A program made the translations under genes and the position numbers. Shown here one piece after another: positions 9,930-64,000 of a DNA stretch of 64,000 nt. The notes beneath the pieces were generated by a model. It did no database searches and had not been told where the DNA came from. It was given only the letters and a program-made list of their open reading frames with translations. Within the stretch, counting starts at the first letter, position 1, and each line of letters begins with the position of its first letter. Origin of the DNA: Candidatus Thalassarchaeum sp. (GTDB taxonomy: Archaea; Thermoplasmatota; Poseidoniia; Poseidoniales; Thalassarchaeaceae); NCBI GenBank assembly GCA_016777225.1, contig JADHRW010000005.1, forward strand, positions 50,982-114,981, written 5' to 3'.

Positions 9930-11552
9930 CTACTCTAATACTTTAGGAGATGCAGAAAGTACTTCTTCACTACAACCTTCAGAGTACTGTTCGAAATTTT
10001 CAATAAACATTTGTGCCAATAAATTTGCTACATTGTCAAATCGAGTTTTATCTGCCCAGGTTTCTCTAGGTTGAAGTATCTCATCAGGAACTCCTTCGCA
10101 AGATGTAGGTATATGGAAACCGAATCTTTCATCTTCTACAAATATCACATCATCTAATGAACCATCTAATGCGGCATTAAGAAGAGCCCGAGTCCATTTT
10201 ATACGTATTCGACTAGACTCACCGTATCCTCCTGCAACCCATCCAGTATTAATTAACCAACAATTTGCATTATGGTCTCGGATTTTATTGGAAAGTAGAT
10301 CTGCATAAATACTTGGATGCCTAGGCATAAATGGTGCACCAAAACATGTTGAAAATGTTGCTTGAGGCTCAGTTATTCCTATCTCCGTACCTGCGACTTT
10401 TGCTGTATATCCCGAAATAAAATGGTAAGCCGCTTGCTCAGGAGTCAATCGTGAAAGAGGAGGAAGGACGCCAAAAGCGTCACAAGTTAGGAAAACAACA
10501 TCTTTTGGATGTCCTCCAATAGAATCTAATGTGCGATTTTCGATAGACTCTATGGGGTAAGAACCACGAGTATTTTGCGTCAAAGTACCATCCTCAAAAT
10601 TAGGTACACCATTTGCATCTAAAATGACATTTTCTAAAACTGAACCAGGCATCCTAGTTGTGGCAAATATAGCAGGTTCATCTTCCTTAGAAAGACCGAT
10701 TAATTTAGCATAACATCCTCCTTCGAAATTGAATACACCATCATCAGACCATCCATGTTCATCATCACCGATTAATGCACGACCTGGATCTGCTGAAAGT
10801 GTGGTTTTTCCTGTCCCTGAAAGTCCGAAGAATAATGCTGAATTAGTATAATCAGTATTGGCAGAACAATGCATAGGAAGCAATCCTTTAGCGGGTAATA
10901 TATGATTCATTATGGTGAATATTGCTTTTTTGATTTCGCCCGCATATTGAGTGCCTCCAATAATCACAAGCCCTCTATCTAAAGCAAGAATTACAAACAC
11001 TCCTGAATTTATCCCATCTTCTTTGGGGTTGGCAAGAAGTTCGGGAGCATGAAGAATAGTATATTCAGGTACATGATTAACTAGTTCACTAGGTTCACTT
11101 CTTACAAACATATTATGGAAGAAAGATGCGTGCCAAGCTTTTTCTGTAATCAAACGAACTGGCATAGAGTATTTTTTATCCGCTCCACAATGAGCATCTT
11201 TGACAAACAATACATCTCTATTATCAAGATAATTTTGTACCTTAGTGAGTAAATTATCAAAGATTGCAGGAGATGTAGATTTGTTTACTTCACCCCACCA
11301 TACTTCATCTGCTAAACCTGATTCTTCAACAATGAATCTATCATTAGGTGAACGACCTGTTCTCTCACCTGTGGTTGCTAACAATACTCCGTGAGATGTG
11401 AGAGATGCTTCGCCTCTTTCAACAGCCATCTCATGTAGGTCTTTCCAACCAAGATTCCAGTGTACTGCTCCACTGGGGTTTAGTCCATGTGTCGCTAAAG
11501 GTGTGGCAAATTCGGAAGAGGAAGGGCCCTTCGACGTCGTCTCCATACACAT
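9930..11552 (-). CDS. pckA: Phosphoenolpyruvate carboxykinase (ATP)
   Basis: Interconverts oxaloacetate + ATP with PEP + CO2 + ADP. The ATP-type is shown by the kinase-1a P-loop GLSGTGKTTLSADP, the upstream GGTQYAGEIKKAIF block, and the metal and nucleotide motif GDDEHGWSD. The ORF track starts at 11597, but a strong TATA-like stretch (11597-11613) covers that codon, so transcription should begin near 11575; the ATG at 11552, or the one two codons on at 11546, is the better start. That gives ~540 residues, the family's usual size. It is convergent with malic enzyme, placing two enzymes of the PEP-pyruvate-malate node side by side. Confidence 0.95.
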   Translation of the reverse strand: MCMETTSKGPSSSEFATPLATHGLNPSGAVHWNLGWKDLHEMAVERGEASLTSHGVLLATTGERTGRSPNDRFIVEESGLADEVWWGEVNKSTSPAIFDNLLTKVQNYLDNRDVLFVKDAHCGADKKYSMPVRLITEKAWHASFFHNMFVRSEPSELVNHVPEYTILHAPELLANPKEDGINSGVFVILALDRGLVIIGGTQYAGEIKKAIFTIMNHILPAKGLLPMHCSANTDYTNSALFFGLSGTGKTTLSADPGRALIGDDEHGWSDDGVFNFEGGCYAKLIGLSKEDEPAIFATTRMPGSVLENVILDANGVPNFEDGTLTQNTRGSYPIESIENRTLDSIGGHPKDVVFLTCDAFGVLPPLSRLTPEQAAYHFISGYTAKVAGTEIGITEPQATFSTCFGAPFMPRHPSIYADLLSNKIRDHNANCWLINTGWVAGGYGESSRIRIKWTRALLNAALDGSLDDVIFVEDERFGFHIPTSCEGVPDEILQPRETWADKTRFDNVANLLAQMFIENFEQYSEGCSEEVLSASPKVLE

Positions 11553-11596
11553 TGACAATGTCAATTCCTTTTCAATGATTACGGAGAGATATGGCA

Positions 11597-11613
11597 AATA
11601 TATAAGATATATC
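11597..11613. promoter_or_regulatory. Shared TATA-like element between pckA and the polytopic membrane protein
   Basis: AAATATATAAGATATATC is nearly self-complementary, so a TATA box can be read on both strands. Reading minus, transcription would begin ~11575 for pckA; reading plus, ~11630 for the gene at 11666. The archaeal TATA-to-start distance (~25 bp) is established knowledge; the assignment here is inference. Confidence 0.5.
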
Positions 11614-11665
11614 TATTATTACAAACGGGGATTAAATTATGTCATAAACACCTGTCAGACAGACT

Positions 11666-14600
11666 GTGAGTACCGACGACTTGGACGATGATATCATCCG
11701 TCAAAGAGCGTTTAAGATTAGTGATTCTATTAAATTAGATGACATTATTATTCCCGATGAGGTAGTTGAAGATATCATAGTTTCTGATAAAAAAGAGACC
11801 GATGAGGCACTAGGAGATATCTTTGATCCGTTTGCTCAAGATGATGAAAATACACCCGGCAATATAGCTAAAGATGGAACAGTAGATAATCCATCAGAAG
11901 TTGATATTGTAACTAATTTAGCCCAAGAGGGTGAAAGGAAAGTTAATTGGATATTAATGGCTTCGATGATTGTAGTATTTTCTGGTGTGAGCATTGTAGC
12001 AGGGATAGCATTAGATCCAATATTTGCAACCATTCTACTAATTATTTTAGCACTACTTGGATTCTCCTTAGGTGAATTATGGATTCCAAAAAACAATTTA
12101 CACTTACTCGGAGTGACATGGATAATAATTTCAATGAAAGTTCTGTACGGATTAGCTGTAGAATTACAAAGATGGGATATTATTTCAATAGAAATTCTTG
12201 GCCTATTTTTACTTTCACTTGTAAGTTTAAATGTTTATCTATCTTATAGGCATAATTCTGATGCAATAGCGGCTCAGTCTACTCTAATCTTACTAGCAAT
12301 TGGTTCTGCAACTGGCTATAGTTTTGGAGAAATTGGTATCGCATTAATGATTTTAGTTGCAACTATCCTAGTTCATGGATTGGCAATTCATAGAAAATCA
12401 GGTAATTTAGCGGCATTGGGTATCGCATCAACCAATCTCTGGGTTGGAATGCATGCATTAACTAATGGTTTTAGCATTGGTTCGTTAAGTATTCTACCAC
12501 TAGAAAAACCGTTACTTTTATTCATATTAATCATGATTATTACGGCAATAAATGCAAGTATGGCTGCAAAGTTTGCTAAAGATGAAAATTGGTTTTCGAA
12601 AGCATTCAAAACTTTGGGGTTAGGAGAACCTGGACTGTGGGGGGTCTCAATATCTCTGGGTATGATTGGTGCTCTAATGGCAGTAGGTGCAAATCGACAA
12701 GATTTAGGATATGCTATTGGTTTAATTGCAATATTAGCTTCTTCTTTTGGTGGTTCTTATTTGGTAGTAAGAGGGGTAAAAACAAGAAGAGTTGTTCAAC
12801 CTTTACTAATTTCAGGTATCTTACTCACAATTCTTCTAATAGTTAGTGAATCGTGGGATGTTTTGCCATTTGATTCTTATGAAGTATTTGCAGTAATTGG
12901 AATATTTATTACTGGTTTTGTAATTCTTAGAGACCAAAATTCAGTTACTGATCGAGTTCTATGGACTGGTTCGGTGGGTATTCTAATATTACTTGTAATA
13001 ATGATACCAGCAGAATCTTCGGAAAATTTCTGTATATCTTCTTGTCAAAAAGGAGACGGGGGGTTTCTACTCTTATCTGCATTATCTTTAATTCATATTG
13101 GAACCGCTACACTTGCAATAAGAAGAGATTCGCCTTCTCTAGGCGGGATTACAGTTATTTTGCCCTGGTCATGGGTTGTTATTGAAGAAATGATTGAAGA
13201 GTCTATTAGAACAATCATAGTAGCAAATGGTGGTACAGACCCTGGTTCGATTATTCACATAGATCCGATTCCTTTCTTTGGATACTTAGTTACTTCCGCT
13301 ATGTTGATGGCCGTAGTTAATATTAGACTGGGAGAAAATGGAGTTAATCTTGCATCAAGATTCCTAGGATTAACGGAAATGTCTGCTTCAATCAGAGATT
13401 CTGGAGCATTGCAACTTTGGAGTATTGGATTATGGTTGCCAATCATCACCATTATATTTATGTCCAACTTTGGAGGTTTCACTGCATTGACATTACTCGG
13501 AATATTTGCGATAATTACTATTATTCATGTGGTCGCAGAGATTACTAAGAAAAGAATTGGGAAAATCTCAATTATGTTGGGAATCATTTCATCCGGATTA
13601 CTAATACTGCAATGGCAATATGGACTTGAAGAAAGTTTGATGTTAATTTACTGTTTAGTTACTCTTACTTTACTTATTCAAAATAATGGTTCTAATGAAG
13701 AAATGTACTCAATTGGAATGTCGCTGATGGCAATACCAATGTTGATTACTTTAGTTGCTAGAAAATCTAATGAACTCATAGACTCAGATATTATACCGAG
13801 TTTTGGAATTGCTAAAATCTCTCTATTATGTACTACATTAATGATTTTTGTCTATCTTTCAAAAGCTCAAAAAATGGAGAAATTATTAATACCTGCTCTT
13901 GCGTCTCTTTGGTTATTAACTGTGAATATCACTCTAGCATATACAGAGGGCACATATCTTGAAACTTTAGGGGCATTGGCTTTGTTTGCGGGGAGTACAA
14001 TTTGGTTAGTTGCTAATGGAGAAATAAGAAGAGAGATAAAAAGTATAGCGAAAAAAGATTCGTTGAAAAAATTGGCAACAATAGATATGAATAATGATGA
14101 TATTTCAATAGGAAATGTAACTGGCTATAATCCTCAGTTAGTAGATTTAAAAAATAAAAGAAAGAAGAAAAGAGAGATGGAACATACAGACGATATTGAA
14201 CAAATTTATCTGACTGATGCAACTCATAAACCGATAATAGTAATACTAGTTCTTGGATTAGTAATTATTACATCTGCGGTTATCAATTTCATAGGAGGAA
14301 CAAATAATTTAATTCTACTAATAACTGGAATTTTTATCTCTATATTAGTATTAGTAGCCCGAGAACGTACAAAGGGGCTTGAGCTAGAATTACCTCATTT
14401 TTTAGGTATAGAAATACCAATTGCCATCTCAATTGGAGGAATCATAATGGTTCAAGTTTCTGGACATTTAGCAGCTGGAAGTAGTAATATCGAATTATTC
14501 GATATGGCAATAATGATTTTACTGGTAATGTTCCTATGTATTGTCTCATTAATAGATCAAAGGAATCTTCTCGATAGAATATTGATTGCAATTGATTGGT

Positions 14601-15397
14601 TCATTATTCCAATATTTATTGGAAGATTTATTGGAACTATTCTTTACGAATCTCTACCAGCACCATTCACAGTTAATCCCACTGAAGGTAATTTAATTGA
14701 ATGGATAATACCTTGGACTATTTTAGAGATATTACTCGTTTTATCAATAATTATTGCTTCATATATAGAATTAAAAAGATTAGAAAAGGGCAGAGAGCCA
14801 ACTACTAATAATTCCTTAAGAGCATTAGCAATAGTTTTCATATCTACAGGACCTGCTGGAATTTTAGCAATAATACTGACCATGTATCATACAATCAAAA
14901 ATCAACAAACTAATGAGTTTGGGTTAGTAATACCAGCAATAATATTCTCGGTGATTTCTTTCTCTAATTGGATTAGTTCGTTGAAAGGAGTCGTTGATGA
15001 ACTAACACTAATACTTGGAGTGGTATTACTGATATTGTGTGTATTAACCGTTCCTTTGAAGAAAGAAATTTGGACTATGAGTTTAGCGATAGATGCACAC
15101 TTAATGCTATATGTAGGACTTGTAGTAACAGGTGCTTTTACAAGTATTTTCCTTCCAATCATTCTGGTATCTTTATCCACCAGCATTTGGATTATTGGTA
15201 TTCTACAACTGAGAAGAATTTTACGAATATGGGGATTATTCGATCTTATTATTGCGATACTAGCGTCCTTGCTATTACTGGGTTCGCAAATGCTTGAACC
15301 TACTGCATTACTCATCGCACTAATTGTTTTGGCTACTGAATTAGGACTAGTGGCGTGGTTGGGCCTCTCCAATGAAGATGAAATTGTAAAAGATTGA
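11666..15397 (+). CDS. Giant polytopic membrane protein (~35 TM segments), unknown function
   Basis: No family recognised. The first ~85 residues are acidic and soluble. Two hydrophobic blocks follow: about 24 predicted TM helices (residues ~90-780), a charged cytosolic-looking loop (~782-853, with RKKKREMEH), then about 12 more helices to the C-terminus. Helices are joined by very short loops. I see no transporter signature, ATPase motif or catalytic motif. The start is GTG at 11666. The downstream gene encodes a single-pass protein and the two may form one complex, although a hairpin plus T-run separates them. It could be a scaffold or a flippase/polymerase-like protein of the envelope; not assignable by eye. 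Confidence 0.85.
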   Translation: MSTDDLDDDIIRQRAFKISDSIKLDDIIIPDEVVEDIIVSDKKETDEALGDIFDPFAQDDENTPGNIAKDGTVDNPSEVDIVTNLAQEGERKVNWILMASMIVVFSGVSIVAGIALDPIFATILLIILALLGFSLGELWIPKNNLHLLGVTWIIISMKVLYGLAVELQRWDIISIEILGLFLLSLVSLNVYLSYRHNSDAIAAQSTLILLAIGSATGYSFGEIGIALMILVATILVHGLAIHRKSGNLAALGIASTNLWVGMHALTNGFSIGSLSILPLEKPLLLFILIMIITAINASMAAKFAKDENWFSKAFKTLGLGEPGLWGVSISLGMIGALMAVGANRQDLGYAIGLIAILASSFGGSYLVVRGVKTRRVVQPLLISGILLTILLIVSESWDVLPFDSYEVFAVIGIFITGFVILRDQNSVTDRVLWTGSVGILILLVIMIPAESSENFCISSCQKGDGGFLLLSALSLIHIGTATLAIRRDSPSLGGITVILPWSWVVIEEMIEESIRTIIVANGGTDPGSIIHIDPIPFFGYLVTSAMLMAVVNIRLGENGVNLASRFLGLTEMSASIRDSGALQLWSIGLWLPIITIIFMSNFGGFTALTLLGIFAIITIIHVVAEITKKRIGKISIMLGIISSGLLILQWQYGLEESLMLIYCLVTLTLLIQNNGSNEEMYSIGMSLMAIPMLITLVARKSNELIDSDIIPSFGIAKISLLCTTLMIFVYLSKAQKMEKLLIPALASLWLLTVNITLAYTEGTYLETLGALALFAGSTIWLVANGEIRREIKSIAKKDSLKKLATIDMNNDDISIGNVTGYNPQLVDLKNKRKKKREMEHTDDIEQIYLTDATHKPIIVILVLGLVIITSAVINFIGGTNNLILLITGIFISILVLVARERTKGLELELPHFLGIEIPIAISIGGIIMVQVSGHLAAGSSNIELFDMAIMILLVMFLCIVSLIDQRNLLDRILIAIDWFIIPIFIGRFIGTILYESLPAPFTVNPTEGNLIEWIIPWTILEILLVLSIIIASYIELKRLEKGREPTTNNSLRALAIVFISTGPAGILAIILTMYHTIKNQQTNEFGLVIPAIIFSVISFSNWISSLKGVVDELTLILGVVLLILCVLTVPLKKEIWTMSLAIDAHLMLYVGLVVTGAFTSIFLPIILVSLSTSIWIIGILQLRRILRIWGLFDLIIAILASLLLLGSQMLEPTALLIALIVLATELGLVAWLGLSNEDEIVKD

Positions 15398-15418
15398 GAA
15401 AAATAGTGATTTTCGTAG

Positions 15419-15446
15419 CACTAAGAGATATTTTAGTGGATTTTTT
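15419..15446 (+). terminator. Hairpin followed by T6 run
   Basis: CACTAA (15419-15424) and TTAGTG (15433-15438) form a 6-bp stem with an 8-nt loop, followed after two bases by TTTTTT (15441-15446). It sits between the large membrane protein and the next gene, only 2 bp before that gene's ATG. It resembles an intrinsic terminator or attenuator; archaea mainly need the T-run. Confidence 0.5.
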
Positions 15447-15448
15447 AC

Positions 15449-16471
15449 ATGACATATTTACTAACGGGATATGCTAACCTTGATGATGGGCGGGCCCGAC
15501 AAAGAACTGTGACGAGGTCTTGGATAGCCGATATATCGGAGGAAGTTGAACATCCTCCAATACCTATTGGTCTAAATGAAATGACTGTCCCTAGGACTAT
15601 GATTATACTCTCATTTGTTACAGTTCTAATGATAATTTTGTCATCAGTATGGTTAGGATTAGCCGCTCTTTCTTTCCAAGGAGAGTTAGAAAATCTATTT
15701 CCAGACGATGGAGTTTCAGAAGCGGATCTAAAGAATGATGGTAGATGGGCTTGGGAACTTGATTTATTATTCGATACCTGTGAATCAAGACTGGGAGACT
15801 GGGATTGGCCTGAATCATTAGCAGAGCAAGACGATTACTTCCTCTATCCGGGAGAATTGAGATGTGATTGGGAGCATCAAGGAAATGGAGATAGAGCGAG
15901 TATAGTAGTTTACAATAGAGGAAATTCTACTATTGATTTGATACTAGAAATAGTTGGTGGAGGAGTAGAATTCACAAACGAAGGAAGTTATAATTTACTC
16001 TTGAATGGTTTAGAAGGAAATAGTACTGAGATTATTGAGATATCATTAACTGAAGATATTACAGAGAAAGACTTCACAGTTACTGCAACGCATGTTGAAT
16101 TCAATCCAGTTTCTATGGTTAACCTTGATGTTCATTTATTCAAGGGTCCTGATGAGAGAGATATTCATATCACAGATGGAAACAATGTTCAAGTTCATTA
16201 CATACTATGGGATGCAGATACAGGAGAACAACTAGATGAAGGAGACTTACCTGTAACCGGAGGAGATGATAACAGATATATCAAAGGCTTTGGTTGGGCA
16301 GTTATAGGATTAGATATTGGGCAAGATAGAGGATTAGCGCCGGGCGTGGATACAGGTACTACACACACCGTGTTATTACCTCCACCTATAGCATACGGGA
16401 ATAGCGAAGGTCATGAATTAGAAAATACATGGTTACGGTTTGAAGTGAAAATAGATAGAGCTGTCGTATGA
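15449..16471 (+). CDS. Single-pass membrane protein with large extracellular domain, unknown
   Basis: 340 residues: ~45 N-terminal cytosolic residues, one TM helix (~50-72, IILSFVTVLMIILSSVW), then an acidic external domain of ~265 residues with two early cysteines (FDTCESR and LRCDWEH) that could form a disulfide. The middle looks like a beta-sandwich (a run of ITEKDFTVTATHVEF type strands). No family recognised. The start is ATG at 15449, just after the hairpin/T-run; a GTG at 15509 is an alternative because an AT-rich TATA-like stretch begins inside the ORF. Probably works with the preceding polytopic protein; inference from position only. Confidence 0.75.
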   Translation: MTYLLTGYANLDDGRARQRTVTRSWIADISEEVEHPPIPIGLNEMTVPRTMIILSFVTVLMIILSSVWLGLAALSFQGELENLFPDDGVSEADLKNDGRWAWELDLLFDTCESRLGDWDWPESLAEQDDYFLYPGELRCDWEHQGNGDRASIVVYNRGNSTIDLILEIVGGGVEFTNEGSYNLLLNGLEGNSTEIIEISLTEDITEKDFTVTATHVEFNPVSMVNLDVHLFKGPDERDIHITDGNNVQVHYILWDADTGEQLDEGDLPVTGGDDNRYIKGFGWAVIGLDIGQDRGLAPGVDTGTTHTVLLPPPIAYGNSEGHELENTWLRFEVKIDRAVV

Positions 16472-16490: not shown

Positions 16491-17795
16491 ATGTCAGAAG
16501 AAAAAAAACATACTGCATTAATACCTTCAGCACAAATTGCAGAGGAAGCAGGTAAACGTAACGAGGCAAAATCTGCAAGAAGAGGTGAACCGCCTCTACA
16601 TATGAATGATGATATGAGAAGGTTGTCTACTCCATGGTCTATATCGATGGTAAGAGCGAAGCAAATTAATTCCTCGGATTTGCCAGCAGGTGTAATTCTT
16701 GATGCTGCTGCTGGTTCAGGTTCTCAATTGATAGCATTAGCGACAGAATTGAAAAGACCTGCTTTAGGAATTGAACTTGATGGTAATATAGCAGTTTTAT
16801 GTGCTGCAAATATGCATGTTGCATCTGATAAAGAAGAAATACAAAGAACATTAGATAGGGTAATTATTGGAGATGGAAGTGATGCAGAAGGAGCGATTAC
16901 TGCTTACTGGAATAGTCTAAGAAAATCAGGAACTAGAGCACACCCACCTATTGCAATGTTACACTTAGATCCAGCAAGGCCGAGAGATGCTCAAAATCAC
17001 CATATTGATGAAATGAAGCCTTCATTAAAATCTGTTCTAAATTCATGGAATGAGTATCTTCAAACAGGCCCTAGTGGCCCGGCCGTTTTACTAGATTTGT
17101 CACCAAGATTAGGGGATGATCAACAGGCAATGGTTGAAGCAGTTGTTGAAACTGTTTTCCCAGGTGCTCCAAAAACTTGGGAATGGTTAAGCCAAGGAGG
17201 AGGAAGAGTAGATAGATTGTCACTGTGGATAGGGGCGATTTCATCAAAAGAAGATCGGAGGTGTATAAGAATGGGCAGAAAAAATATTCTAGCCAAGATA
17301 CAAGGTAAAAAATCAGATTCTAAAATTGATACCTTGAGTAAGCCTCCTCCATTTGGTGCATTTATCTCAATCATTGATCCTGCCTTGATTCAAAGTGGAC
17401 TACAAGAAAAATGGCTAAATGAGGCTTTGAAACCAGATAGCGGGCATTCTTGGCTAAGACTTGATGGCAGAAGGCCATTATTAATCCACACGGACCCGCT
17501 AAATGATAATGATGAGATTAAAGGTTTTGTAGTAAGTACAGGAGAAATTGTACAACACAGATTGACACCTCCGGAATTACATTCAATAGACCAAGTTGCG
17601 AGTGCAGCTTCAAGAAATGATATTGGAAAAATAACTCTTAGATGCTCACTAGATCCAGAACTGCAGCCTACTATACAACGTCGTCTAGATAAAGCACTTC
17701 GAGACGTAGATGGATCTAAGTCGTTCATGGTAGATATTGATTTAGAACGGGGAACTGGTAGCCATAAACTATACATTATCTGTAAAGAAAACTGA
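16491..17795 (+). CDS. Class I SAM-dependent methyltransferase with THUMP-like C-terminus
   Basis: Residues ~65-200 show a Rossmann methyltransferase: the SAM loop LDAAAGSGSQ (motif I), acidic ELDGN (motif II), and LDPARPRD, which matches the DPAR variant of the catalytic DPP motif seen in the THUMP-like methyltransferase family. The C-terminal ~200 residues carry the divergent THUMP-like part, expected to bind RNA. The substrate is unknown; position beside a ribosomal-protein operon suggests rRNA or tRNA, but that is inference. GGAGAGG at 16480-16486 precedes the ATG, a good ribosome binding site. Confidence 0.75.
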   Translation: MSEEKKHTALIPSAQIAEEAGKRNEAKSARRGEPPLHMNDDMRRLSTPWSISMVRAKQINSSDLPAGVILDAAAGSGSQLIALATELKRPALGIELDGNIAVLCAANMHVASDKEEIQRTLDRVIIGDGSDAEGAITAYWNSLRKSGTRAHPPIAMLHLDPARPRDAQNHHIDEMKPSLKSVLNSWNEYLQTGPSGPAVLLDLSPRLGDDQQAMVEAVVETVFPGAPKTWEWLSQGGGRVDRLSLWIGAISSKEDRRCIRMGRKNILAKIQGKKSDSKIDTLSKPPPFGAFISIIDPALIQSGLQEKWLNEALKPDSGHSWLRLDGRRPLLIHTDPLNDNDEIKGFVVSTGEIVQHRLTPPELHSIDQVASAASRNDIGKITLRCSLDPELQPTIQRRLDKALRDVDGSKSFMVDIDLERGTGSHKLYIICKEN

Positions 17796-59550: not shown

Positions 59551-62500
59551 TCATATCTGACCTTCAATAGAATCTTCTATTATTTTCTTTTCATTCTCAA
59601 TTATAGCAAGAGCTACTTCTGGAGAATATCCTACCTTAGTCAAGTCGTCTAACTTCTGATCGGTATTTTCATTATTCCAATCTTGGAATTGCTTTTCAAA
59701 AGTTGCGTTGACATCCTCTGTATCATCAGAGAATTGTCGTATCTTTGGCCTGTTTCTTTGGACTAAAATTAAACCTGCCAATAATATCATGCCCATACTA
59801 AATATTCCAGTAGTTATGGCTGAATTAGTAGAAAATAGTTGAACGATACTCATCTCAATATTATCATCTTCAATAGAATCCATACAACCATCACGATCTA
59901 TGTCAGTTGATTTAGATGATTGCCAATTCGTTAAACCATTTGGACAATTGTCTCTAGAATCTAAAATGCCATCTCCATCATCATCAAAGTCTTCAGTTAA
60001 ATCATGACATCCGTCGTTATCCATATCTAATCCGCTTTCTAAGCTATTAGGACATTGATCGAAATTATCTAGAACACCATCATTATCGTCATCTGCATCT
60101 TCATTAGCGTCGTGACAGCCATCTCTATCAGCATCTTCAGTAATTGTAGACACCCAACCTGAAGATGGATTGTCTTGGCAATTGTCTAGACTATTGTCTA
60201 TACCGTCATTATCGATATCTTCATCTTCTAAATCATCTAAACAGCCGTCATTATCTTGATCTACATCTGAATTGCCGCTAGTAACATACATTGCACTTCT
60301 AATACAATTGTCTTCAGTATCTAAAAACCCATCATTATCATCATCAAGATCTTCAAGTAAATCATTACAACCATCTGAATCCCAATCATTTATGGTAGTA
60401 GAAAGCCAATCTGTAGCCCCCATTGAACATTGATCTAAATCATCAGAAATACCATCATTGTCTCTATCATTATCTTCAGTTGCATCATGACAACCATCTC
60501 CATCTTGATCAGTAGCTGGACTTGATATCCAAAGTACAAGTCCTTGAGGACAAGAATCACCTCGATCTAGGATGCCATCATTATCGTCATCATTATCATC
60601 AAATACATCATGGCAGCCATCAGTATCATGATCGAAATATAGGTCATCCCACCAAGAATACCCAGAACTACAATCATCGTTAATATCTAAGTAAGGATCA
60701 TTGTCATCATTGTCATCTTCATCAGCATCACGACAGCCGTCACCATCATTATCAATTGCAAATGAACTCCAGTATTGAGCACCGTCTGGACAAAGATCGT
60801 AACCATTTACTACACCGTCGCCATCATTATCAATATCTTCATTACGATCATCACAACCATCATAATCATCATCTAGAATTTCTCCAATTTGACCAGTTGG
60901 ACATAAGTCATTTGAATCTAGGTAGCCATCGTTATCATCATCTAAATCCTCAGAAGAATCTTTACAACCATCGCTATCATGATCATTGAGAGGAGATGAT
61001 ATCCAATTGGACTCTCCAAATTGACATAAGTCCTGTTCATCATAAACGCCATCTAAATCATCATCATTCCAATCGCCATTATTTACAAGATTTATTTTAA
61101 TTAATTTTGTAATAGAGGCTTCGTCTTTAGTTGATGAGGTCACAGATAAAGTCAACCAAAACTCTTGATTTTCATTAACTTGGTTTAGTGATGGGGCTCT
61201 AATGAATAAATCAAAATTATTCATCTGATTTTCAATTAGTGTTGTTGTGTGTTGATATGTTCCTGCAAAACCAGCATCAATAAACCAATGATTTGGAGTT
61301 CCTTGAATGTCAATAGTTACTATATCGGATTCACCGGGTAATTGGATGGCATTTATCTGATAGTTTGTATTAGATGATTGAGAAGGGGTGAAACTCATTT
61401 CAACTGGATCTGAACTGATTTCGATATCCCAAACATTTTCTGACCACATACAAACATCCCATTTATCTTCATTTATATCAGAATTAGAACAATCATCTGT
61501 AGTCCAAATAATATCTCTATTTGGCCAATTAAAGTTCACTATTGGTTGAGATGCAGATTCAACATTGTTTCCAAATATACCCATTAAATTATCTGAACTA
61601 GATGCTATGATTCGGGTATTGATGACACCATAGGCGTCAGTTAGTGTTTGACCAGTCAGGAGTGCCCCCTGATTATCTAATTGAGGAGAATTTATTCGAG
61701 TCCATCTTAATTCCACTATTCCTTCATCAGTAATCGTATCATCCATCGATTCGAACCAAGTAATATGTATAGAACCATCATTATCGAAATCAACGCGTGG
61801 ATTAGCTCCATAAGTCATGTCTGAACCTGGTACTGCAGAGTTTGTAACAACGGCTACTTGGTTCAAATTTAGGCCATCAGCCTCACCATCAAGCATTCCA
61901 GCGCGACTCAAATCTAGTTGCATATAGTGTAGCTGTGAAGCCACATCCTTACCAGGCATGGAATCTCTACCATCTACCCAGACTACATGCACGTTACCCT
62001 TGTCATCAACATTAACTTCAGGATTTACTGACCAGCCATGGCCACTAGTTAATCTGGTATCATTAACTAAGACAAAATGTCCTATTGTACTCCAACCTAT
62101 ACCATCTTGCCAAATATAATCTAGATTCGGTCCTACGTCTTCGATATATTCTCCGGTTTCATCATTTATGGTAATTGCTGGCATTCCTCTGGACCAATCA
62201 CTTCTTGGTGAGTTTAGAATAGAATAAGGATTCAATACTGTGAGGAACGTTTCTGTAGATCCGCTACCTGTTGTTAAAGATACTATTTCATTTACAAGAG
62301 CGTTGAGTTCTTCAGTATAATTTGCAACTGGGACTACAACATCATCAATCCAAGCAGCATCAAGACCGACGCTAACACTTCCATCTTTGACATATTTCCA
62401 CATCAATGTATGTTGACCGAGAGTAATAGGCGTAGTGAAGTTACCATTCTGTGAACCTGACCACTGTGCTATTAGAACTCCATCGATATAAAACTGTAAG

Positions 62501-64000
62501 AAATCATAATTTGCTTCAGAAGAAATATTGTAAGAGAAACTTACTGCTCCGTCAGCTAAAATTCCTACATACTCTAAACTGGTACTTTCACTATTAGAAA
62601 TAGTACCCGATTCTGCAGAATAAGTTCCTGAAATAGGAGTATAAGAGGGATTGGTCTGAGATACATAAGAATAGTCGGCTGAGACTGAAGATCCACCATC
62701 GCCAAATGAGTCGTTGAGATAAATGGTATAATTTCCAATATCTGTATAACTTACTAGAATTCCATCATTGCCTGATGAAATCCCTTGAAAAGAAAGGTCT
62801 GTTGAATTGAATGACTCTACCGTCCCATTAGGAAGAATAACATCCATACTAAATTCTGAAGGCCAGTTGTCAATTCCAACTGTGAGATCAACTGAGGAAG
62901 TATTTGGAGGATGGTAATAAGTACAGTTCAAGGAATGAAATGAAGGGTTAGCAACAGAACCGCCAATACCACATAGATTCGTATTTGAGTAGACAATTCC
63001 ATTATTTGCTGACTCTAAAGACCAAAAATTGTTTGATGGACTTGAAACTGCCCAGCCATTTGTCAAATAGCCACTTTCAAAATCGCCTTCGAAATTAGCC
63101 ATATTATTCGATGGATAGAGGTACATCTCGCCTCCAGCATCTTTCGTGCTCCAAGATGAGTCATCACAAGTTCTATGCTGAGTTCCAACTGTGGTTCCGG
63201 GGCATTGTACTAAATCCATCATATGAGATCTTACGATCGTGTCTGAACCACCAGCAATATTTGTAGAAGGCCCATATGCAGAAGTTCCTGCTATTGCTAT
63301 TGGTATGATTCCTGCCTTAGTACAAGCATCGTGTGCTTCAATTATACTTTGATTATCATCAGACTCTTGTGCCGGATCTCCACCAAATGGCCCCTCGTCA
63401 GAGATAGGAATAATCAACCTAGTAGCATTCGGATTCCATTGATGATCATTCGGTGTTGCTGGATTTCCAGGTACGCTACCTGAACTATCTCTCCAAGATA
63501 GACAAGCCCATGTTGATCCTGGTCCCCACATTTCACTATTATACCCCCAATCTGATGGTATGTTGTAACTAGAACCGTTGTATATTACATCAGAAAGAGC
63601 TCTTATTCCGCCTGAGGTATCTGTCATGTTTTGGCCAAGATGATTGTCTCTTGGTCCGTCACCAAATCCTCCAATTTCATATGCATCTTCACAATTCTTC
63701 TGGCTATTTGCATGTTGCATTTGGCCACTAATTGCATAAAGTGTTTCTAAAACCGTAATACTAGCGGATTCAAGCATCGGCTTGACACCTTGGAAATATT
63801 CTCCACTACTTAAATTTCCACCATAAAATACTGCACACATATCCAACCATTCGGTAGTCATAGATCCCGAAGAATCTACTAATCCAACATACTCGATTAA
63901 ACTTCCACGTGTATCTTCCCAAACGACAATTACCGTATTATTCGTACCTATTGATATCGCTGGGCTACCTTTGTAGCCAATTGCTGGAGTAATGATTGTA
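59551..64000 (-). CDS. Giant VWA / thrombospondin-type-3-repeat surface protein, N-terminus beyond window
   Basis: The ORF track starts at 63861, but the frame stays open to the right edge, and the residues just before read GLVDSSGSM, so 63861 is the Met of a VWA MIDAS motif D-x-S-G-S. Upstream lies a TNNTVIVVWEDTRGS-like propeller segment. After the VWA region come beta-sandwich parts, then ~10 calcium-binding TSP3-like units (DDDNDGYLDSNDLCPTG, DIDNDGDGVVNGYDLCP), one TM helix (TTGIFSMGMILLAGLILV) and a ~75-residue cytosolic tail. 1,483 codons in the window. Surface adhesion or protease-docking role is likely. Confidence 0.85.
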   Translation of the reverse strand, partial: TIITPAIGYKGSPAISIGTNNTVIVVWEDTRGSLIEYVGLVDSSGSMTTEWLDMCAVFYGGNLSSGEYFQGVKPMLESASITVLETLYAISGQMQHANSQKNCEDAYEIGGFGDGPRDNHLGQNMTDTSGGIRALSDVIYNGSSYNIPSDWGYNSEMWGPGSTWACLSWRDSSGSVPGNPATPNDHQWNPNATRLIIPISDEGPFGGDPAQESDDNQSIIEAHDACTKAGIIPIAIAGTSAYGPSTNIAGGSDTIVRSHMMDLVQCPGTTVGTQHRTCDDSSWSTKDAGGEMYLYPSNNMANFEGDFESGYLTNGWAVSSPSNNFWSLESANNGIVYSNTNLCGIGGSVANPSFHSLNCTYYHPPNTSSVDLTVGIDNWPSEFSMDVILPNGTVESFNSTDLSFQGISSGNDGILVSYTDIGNYTIYLNDSFGDGGSSVSADYSYVSQTNPSYTPISGTYSAESGTISNSESTSLEYVGILADGAVSFSYNISSEANYDFLQFYIDGVLIAQWSGSQNGNFTTPITLGQHTLMWKYVKDGSVSVGLDAAWIDDVVVPVANYTEELNALVNEIVSLTTGSGSTETFLTVLNPYSILNSPRSDWSRGMPAITINDETGEYIEDVGPNLDYIWQDGIGWSTIGHFVLVNDTRLTSGHGWSVNPEVNVDDKGNVHVVWVDGRDSMPGKDVASQLHYMQLDLSRAGMLDGEADGLNLNQVAVVTNSAVPGSDMTYGANPRVDFDNDGSIHITWFESMDDTITDEGIVELRWTRINSPQLDNQGALLTGQTLTDAYGVINTRIIASSSDNLMGIFGNNVESASQPIVNFNWPNRDIIWTTDDCSNSDINEDKWDVCMWSENVWDIEISSDPVEMSFTPSQSSNTNYQINAIQLPGESDIVTIDIQGTPNHWFIDAGFAGTYQHTTTLIENQMNNFDLFIRAPSLNQVNENQEFWLTLSVTSSTKDEASITKLIKINLVNNGDWNDDDLDGVYDEQDLCQFGESNWISSPLNDHDSDGCKDSSEDLDDDNDGYLDSNDLCPTGQIGEILDDDYDGCDDRNEDIDNDGDGVVNGYDLCPDGAQYWSSFAIDNDGDGCRDADEDDNDDNDPYLDINDDCSSGYSWWDDLYFDHDTDGCHDVFDDNDDDNDGILDRGDSCPQGLVLWISSPATDQDGDGCHDATEDNDRDNDGISDDLDQCSMGATDWLSTTINDWDSDGCNDLLEDLDDDNDGFLDTEDNCIRSAMYVTSGNSDVDQDNDGCLDDLEDEDIDNDGIDNSLDNCQDNPSSGWVSTITEDADRDGCHDANEDADDDNDGVLDNFDQCPNSLESGLDMDNDGCHDLTEDFDDDGDGILDSRDNCPNGLTNWQSSKSTDIDRDGCMDSIEDDNIEMSIVQLFSTNSAITTGIFSMGMILLAGLILVQRNRPKIRQFSDDTEDVNATFEKQFQDWNNENTDQKLDDLTKVGYSPEVALAIIENEKKIIEDSIEGQI
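59869..61070 (-). repeat. TSP3-like Asp-rich repeat tract within surface protein
   Basis: About ten ~35-45-residue units alternating D-x-D-x-D-G-C calcium loops with NxDxCP segments, e.g. DQDGDGCHDATEDNDRDNDG. Regular cysteines suggest disulfides. Nucleotide divergence between units is large, so it is an old repeat. Confidence 0.85.

Follow-up and report, generated by a model that had tools for sequence, protein, structure and literature searches.

What does a protein of 1,243 residues, nearly all of them in membrane helices, do in an uncultured archaeon? Its gene lies in the window, the whole 64,000-nucleotide stretch of Candidatus Thalassarchaeum DNA analysed here. An earlier note, made from the letters of that DNA, had described two blocks of helices, about 35 in all, split by a charged loop. 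This description was borne out. Hydropathy averaged over the family gave 36 transmembrane (TM) segments, versus 33 for the single sequence. We also modelled residues 86-1243 with AlphaFold2, using an alignment of 83 sequences (mean pLDDT 86.9, pTM 0.67). The model contains 37 membrane-length helices, of which the 31st, near residues 1049-1078, is broken. Block 1 (~97-785) has 24 helices and block 2 (~857-1232) has 12-13, with the charged loop (~786-857) between them. Lysine and arginine account for 45 of 295 inside residues, versus 13 of 250 outside residues. Hence, the N-terminus and central loop probably face inwards. If the broken helix does not fully cross the membrane, there would be 36 TM segments, with both ends inside, and the charge rule would fit the whole chain. 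Features of the locus are listed in Table 1.

Table 1. Coordinates of features at the giant gene locus (window positions).
Feature	Position	Strand	Details
pckA, ATP-dependent PEP carboxykinase	9930..11597	-	Divergent from giant gene
AT-rich divergent intergenic region, pckA / giant gene	11598..11665	.	68 bp
Giant polytopic membrane protein gene	11666..15397	+	GTG start, 1243 aa, 36-37 TM helices
Acidic cytoplasmic N-terminal segment	11666..11935	+	~90 aa ahead of TM1; conserved D46, A48, G50, F56, D80, E90
N-terminal TM region, probably homologous to that of DUF2339-related proteins	11945..12435	+	aa ~94-257; hhalign P=4.6e-6 with controls
Predicted cytoplasmic loop, strongly conserved	12563..12643	+	aa 300-326 (A-KF--ENWFS...GLG-PGLW)
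Charged cytoplasmic loop between TM blocks	14021..14242	+	aa 786-859; length and sequence vary between families
C-terminal motif, invariant	15197..15235	+	G1178-x4-R1183-x3-R1187-x2-G1190; precedes last two helices
Single-pass membrane protein	ORF 15449..16471, probable coding 15509..16471	+	Probable GTG start 15509, 320 aa
FKBP_C (PF00254) domain of single-pass protein	16169..16453	+	aa 241-335, 22.8 bits vs gathering 21.1, E=1.2e-4

The giant protein belongs to the core set of Poseidoniales and is specific to that order. Of 390 Thermoplasmatota genomes, 125 matched a family profile, every one from Poseidoniales; named genomes among the matches include Candidatus Poseidoniales, Thalassarchaeaceae and Marine Group II. 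Two of the 127 Poseidoniales (Marine Group II, MGII) genomes gave no match. The protein was absent from the 263 other Thermoplasmatota genomes (0/8 in the sister lineage of the same class and 0/255 in the rest of the phylum). In 125 of the 127 Poseidoniales genomes the reading frame of the homologue is intact, with identities of roughly 30-77%. Hence, this is a real gene under purifying selection. A search of a viral collection found no relatives and so gave no sign of a viral gene. A 2022 survey associated 199 protein families, in two modules, with Poseidoniales; it does not appear to single out the giant family (PMC9258230). Conservation favours block 1 and the inside loops. Residues 97-500 hold 70 positions conserved at 95% or above, versus 12 in residues 857-1243. 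For positions conserved at 90% or above, the figures are 16% on inside loops versus 7%. Conservation is strongest where the N-terminal half faces the cytoplasm.

The protein had been called undescribed and free of known motifs. Consistent with this, Pfam, NCBIfam, PHROGs, PADLOC and PDB sequences gave no direct family match. The NCBIfam model UsfY (E=0.019) was dismissed as a chance match, far under its cut-off. The earlier note had named a clear match to a known transporter or a DUF2339-like family as counting against its reading. For DUF2339 (PF10101), none of 39 giant-family members matched even at E<=10, and the model finds nothing in the window's own genome. A Foldseek search of the AlphaFold2 model against the PDB gave no match at E<=1e-3, with E>0.03 throughout. 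The 50 best listed matches include no transporter. They are mostly soluble helical-repeat proteins (solenoids and toroids) with insignificant E-values. We rejected the weak solenoid matches as evidence of homology because they are insignificant and mostly to soluble proteins. As a description of the modelled fold, the same matches (E>0.03) may suggest a solenoid.

A link to DUF2339 emerged from profile comparison. A phylum-wide search detected sporadic DUF2339 proteins in Thermoplasmatota, and divergent relatives were reached through one of them. Such DUF2339-related proteins are scattered over 8-12 genomes of the phylum. We compared a profile of the N-terminal 190 residues of five of them (L212, L239, L242, L260 and L261) with the N-terminal 190 residues of the giant family. 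The hhalign match (P=4.6e-6, probability 86.5%) is collinear, pairing 19-164 with 22-172, and spans ~170 membrane residues in about 6 helices at ~17% identity. Features in the alignment include GE (following helix 2), K-x-[IL]-Y (within helix 3) and an R[HY]-x-x loop (following helix 4). In the giant protein, motifs within this region are GE-W (136-139), MK-Y (157-161), YRH-D (195-199) and R-SGNLA (243-249). The best of 204 control windows, a TM-segment null drawn from 25 unrelated membrane-protein families only, reached P=0.041. The best of 57 reversed windows of the giant family reached P=0.028. Giant-protein windows outside the N-terminus did not match the DUF2339-related profile.

Hydrophobic helical hairpins might resemble each other by convergence, and the giant family would then be an unrelated orphan. 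The low identity speaks for this, as do comparisons over the full length (P=0.21) and the C-terminus, neither of which was significant. However, the match is in register and limited to the true N-terminus. It is also nearly four orders of magnitude better than the reversed, internal and unrelated membrane-protein controls. We consider convergence unlikely.

The reach of the relationship can be delimited. The DUF2339 profile is small, at 5-7 archaeal sequences. With two canonical DUF2339 proteins added, the match weakened (about 1e-4) but was stable across alignment methods, the seven-sequence profile giving P from 3.5e-5 to 7.4e-4. With the canonical proteins alone (L211 and L262), the match to the giant family N-terminus was gone (P=0.12). 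Hence, the relationship runs through divergent archaeal members. At the other end of the protein, the invariant C-terminal motif resembles the DUF2339 end motif 'aGf-l-Kr-LRw-G' in spacing and in its position before the last two helices; its profile score was not above controls. With the full-length, C-terminal and canonical-only comparisons all short of significance, the supported homology covers about 170 of the 1243 residues. We conclude that the N-terminal TM unit, which comes after a charged cytoplasmic segment, is probably distantly homologous to DUF2339-related proteins. The DUF2339-like match that the earlier note named as counting against its reading is thus half borne out: there is no direct PF10101 match, but the six-helix N-terminal unit appears, from controlled profile comparison, to be a distant DUF2339 relative.

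The profile search also identified giant DUF2339-related proteins in other Thermoplasmatota (L260, L261 and L242). L242 has no Pfam match. Hence, a divergent archaeal branch escapes the Pfam model. Like the Poseidoniales protein, the five relatives in the profile have about 1000-1300 residues, with TM helices after a charged cytoplasmic N-terminus. Unlike the giant gene, theirs are not beside pckA or an Ig-FKBP gene where checked. By inspection, the genes directly downstream of L261 and L242 encode an alcohol dehydrogenase and a peptidase-like protein. The relatives are sporadic and far less conserved than the Poseidoniales protein, which occurs throughout its order.

Downstream of the giant gene, the earlier note had placed a single-pass protein of unknown type with a large outer domain. 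The single pass and the large outer part stand. The type can now be named, since FKBP_C exceeds its gathering cut-off and an Ig-like sandwich lies ahead of it. Conservation sets in at '(V/M)TRSWIAD', with stop codons a short way upstream in close relatives. Hence, translation probably begins at the GTG given in Table 1. In the AlphaFold2 model, an N-terminal TM helix (N-in) leads to an outer Ig-like beta-sandwich (about 100-232, ORF numbering) and a diverged C-terminal FKBP domain. Foldseek matches were mostly Ig/PapD-like sandwiches, and the best PDB match by phmmer was M. tuberculosis FKBP12 (E=0.0077). PF00254 was detected in 12 of 21 family members at E<=1. By inspection, Y251, D263, I278, Y316 and F331 (ORF numbering) occupy the FKBP active-site positions Y26, D37, I56, Y82 and F99. 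These residues are retained as in FKBP-type peptidyl-prolyl isomerases. Unlike those enzymes, the protein has F36 changed to L and W59 to F, diverged loops, and a fusion to a membrane anchor and outer Ig-like domain. Judged by its sequence, it is a membrane-anchored Ig-like plus diverged FKBP protein and a putative prolyl isomerase, with pocket residues mostly kept. Elsewhere in the window (59551-63861, minus strand) is a 1436-residue surface protein that is anchored by a C-terminal TM segment and carries many Asp-rich repeats resembling thrombospondin type-3/calcium-binding ones; it has no Pfam match at E<=0.01.

MGII genomes fell into two families, f1 (the window's, MGIIb-like) and f2 (MGIIa-like), which presumably correspond to MGIIb and MGIIa. 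In MGIIb, divergent pckA is followed by the giant, Ig-FKBP and methyltransferase genes, rps13, rps4, rps11 and rpoD, all in one direction. In MGIIa, divergent pckA and the giant gene are followed by a convergent phosphoglucomutase/phosphomannomutase-type gene. Where contigs reached far enough, pckA adjoined the giant gene in 36 of 38 loci, in both families. The pair is conserved across the order and, in the window, has the divergent 68-bp region in common. Between the Ig-FKBP gene and rps13, the window encodes a 434-residue protein (16491-17795, plus strand) with a SAM-methyltransferase-like motif, LDAAAGSG. It falls under Pfam cut-offs and is syntenic throughout the MGIIb loci examined.

These neighbours bear on whether the giant protein might be a transporter or flippase specific to the lineage, built from repeated helical hairpins, unrelated in function to DUF2339 and acting on lipid-linked sugars, lipids or solutes. 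Both pckA, upstream in each family, and the convergent MGIIa gene feed sugar metabolism. In addition, many invariant polar residues lie within helices or at their cytoplasmic ends. On this reading K158, N189, Q204, H237, N296, R243, N247, N308, R369, D429 and R487 (cytoplasmic face) would form the substrate site. However, the neighbours are divergent or convergent and form no common operon. Self-comparison by hhalign found no significant internal duplication, and 36 or more helices is beyond ordinary transporters. The absence of a PDB sequence match, and of a transporter fold among the listed matches, also counts against it. A transporter is a possibility that we rate as rather doubtful.

The distribution of the Ig-FKBP protein bears on a different proposal. 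From size and layout, the earlier note had suggested an envelope machine. In a specific form of this idea, the giant protein would serve the MGII envelope as a structural or assembly platform, such as a surface-protein scaffold, and the Ig-FKBP protein would be its chaperone subunit outside the cell. The two genes are adjacent and co-directional in 20/20 MGIIb loci examined, and outer Ig and FKBP domains would suit work on secreted proteins. Conversely, in 20/20 MGIIa loci examined the giant gene has no adjacent partner. The profile search found the partner in 59 MGIIb-like genomes and in a single MGIIa-like genome. This lone copy (PF00254 20.4 bits, just under cut-off) is on a contig without the giant gene. 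There (L243:6217-7749), a cyclophilin gene follows directly, placing two prolyl isomerase types side by side. In MGIIb, moreover, the partner's linkage to the methyltransferase-rps13-rps4-rps11-rpoD cluster is just as strong. Since the partner adjoins the giant gene in MGIIb only and is almost absent from MGIIa, it is not an obligate subunit. Hence, synteny across MGII holds for pckA and the giant gene but not for the partner, and an envelope machine with an obligate partner is weakened. We regard the platform as unlikely, and the Ig-FKBP protein as presumably accessory rather than a core subunit.

The reading that we tentatively prefer is drawn by analogy with Arc3A (PA5114, DUF2339, PF10101) of Pseudomonas aeruginosa, the only DUF2339 protein for which the literature searched gave a tested role (PMC8926400). 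Arc3A has 35 predicted TM segments and no catalytic signatures, associates with the single-pass protein Arc3B (PA5113, DUF3999, PF13163), and prevents lysophospholipid accumulation under phospholipase attack (PMC8926400). Its authors suggest sequestration of lysophospholipids by the helices, or interference with the enzyme, as possible modes of action (PMC8926400), and lipase resistance has been confirmed (PMC12663445). Marine Group II genomes are without G1P dehydrogenase; PlsC homologues and a putative fatty-acid pathway are present (PMC6962369). Hence, ester lipids able to yield lysolipids are plausible in MGII. Given this gene content and the Arc3A precedent, an Arc3A-like lipid guard is plausible there too. 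The giant protein could then be a Poseidoniales-specific, very divergent branch of DUF2339/Arc3A that guards membrane lipids. We hold this view with somewhat less than even confidence, and the lipid role, carried over from one bacterial system, is plausible.

As a lipid guard, the giant protein would protect membrane integrity from within the bilayer. The helical hairpins, set in a long array, would form lipid-binding grooves. Abnormal single-chain or damaged lipids might be retained there or handed on, or lipases might be kept out. Guarding would be constitutive, as part of membrane homeostasis, and not triggered by a toxin alarm. In MGIIb, the Ig-FKBP protein would act at the cell surface in folding or anchoring, and may aid folding of the giant protein or other envelope proteins. 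In a bolder version, the giant protein would be an order-defining, DUF2339-derived intramembrane alpha-solenoid of ~36 helices, managing ester or mixed lipids in archaea without G1P dehydrogenase. This we think very doubtful; if true, membrane lipids would be tended by a new type of housekeeping machine. The preferred lipid-guard reading offers a first testable function, membrane-lipid protection, for a near-universal protein of an abundant uncultured archaeal order. It also bears on which lipids Marine Group II archaea make.

Comparison with the Pseudomonas system shows both likeness and divergence. Like Arc3A, the giant protein has very many TM segments (36-37 versus 35), no obvious catalytic residues and, by profile comparison, a DUF2339-type N-terminal TM unit. 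As with Arc3A and Arc3B, the neighbouring gene, in MGIIb, encodes a single-pass protein whose extracytoplasmic part is large. Unlike Arc3A, the giant protein has no PF10101 match, a C-terminal half not demonstrably homologous and a central charged loop. Its gene lies beside pckA, whereas Arc3A is in a Gac/Rsm-regulated cluster. The partner differs from Arc3B in its N-terminal anchor and FKBP domain, and none of its 21 family members matched DUF3999 at E<=1. The giant protein is best filed as a probable, very divergent DUF2339/Arc3A variant, with homology supported for its N-terminal part. As such, it would give work on the mechanism of 35-helix DUF2339 proteins a second example, this one from archaea.
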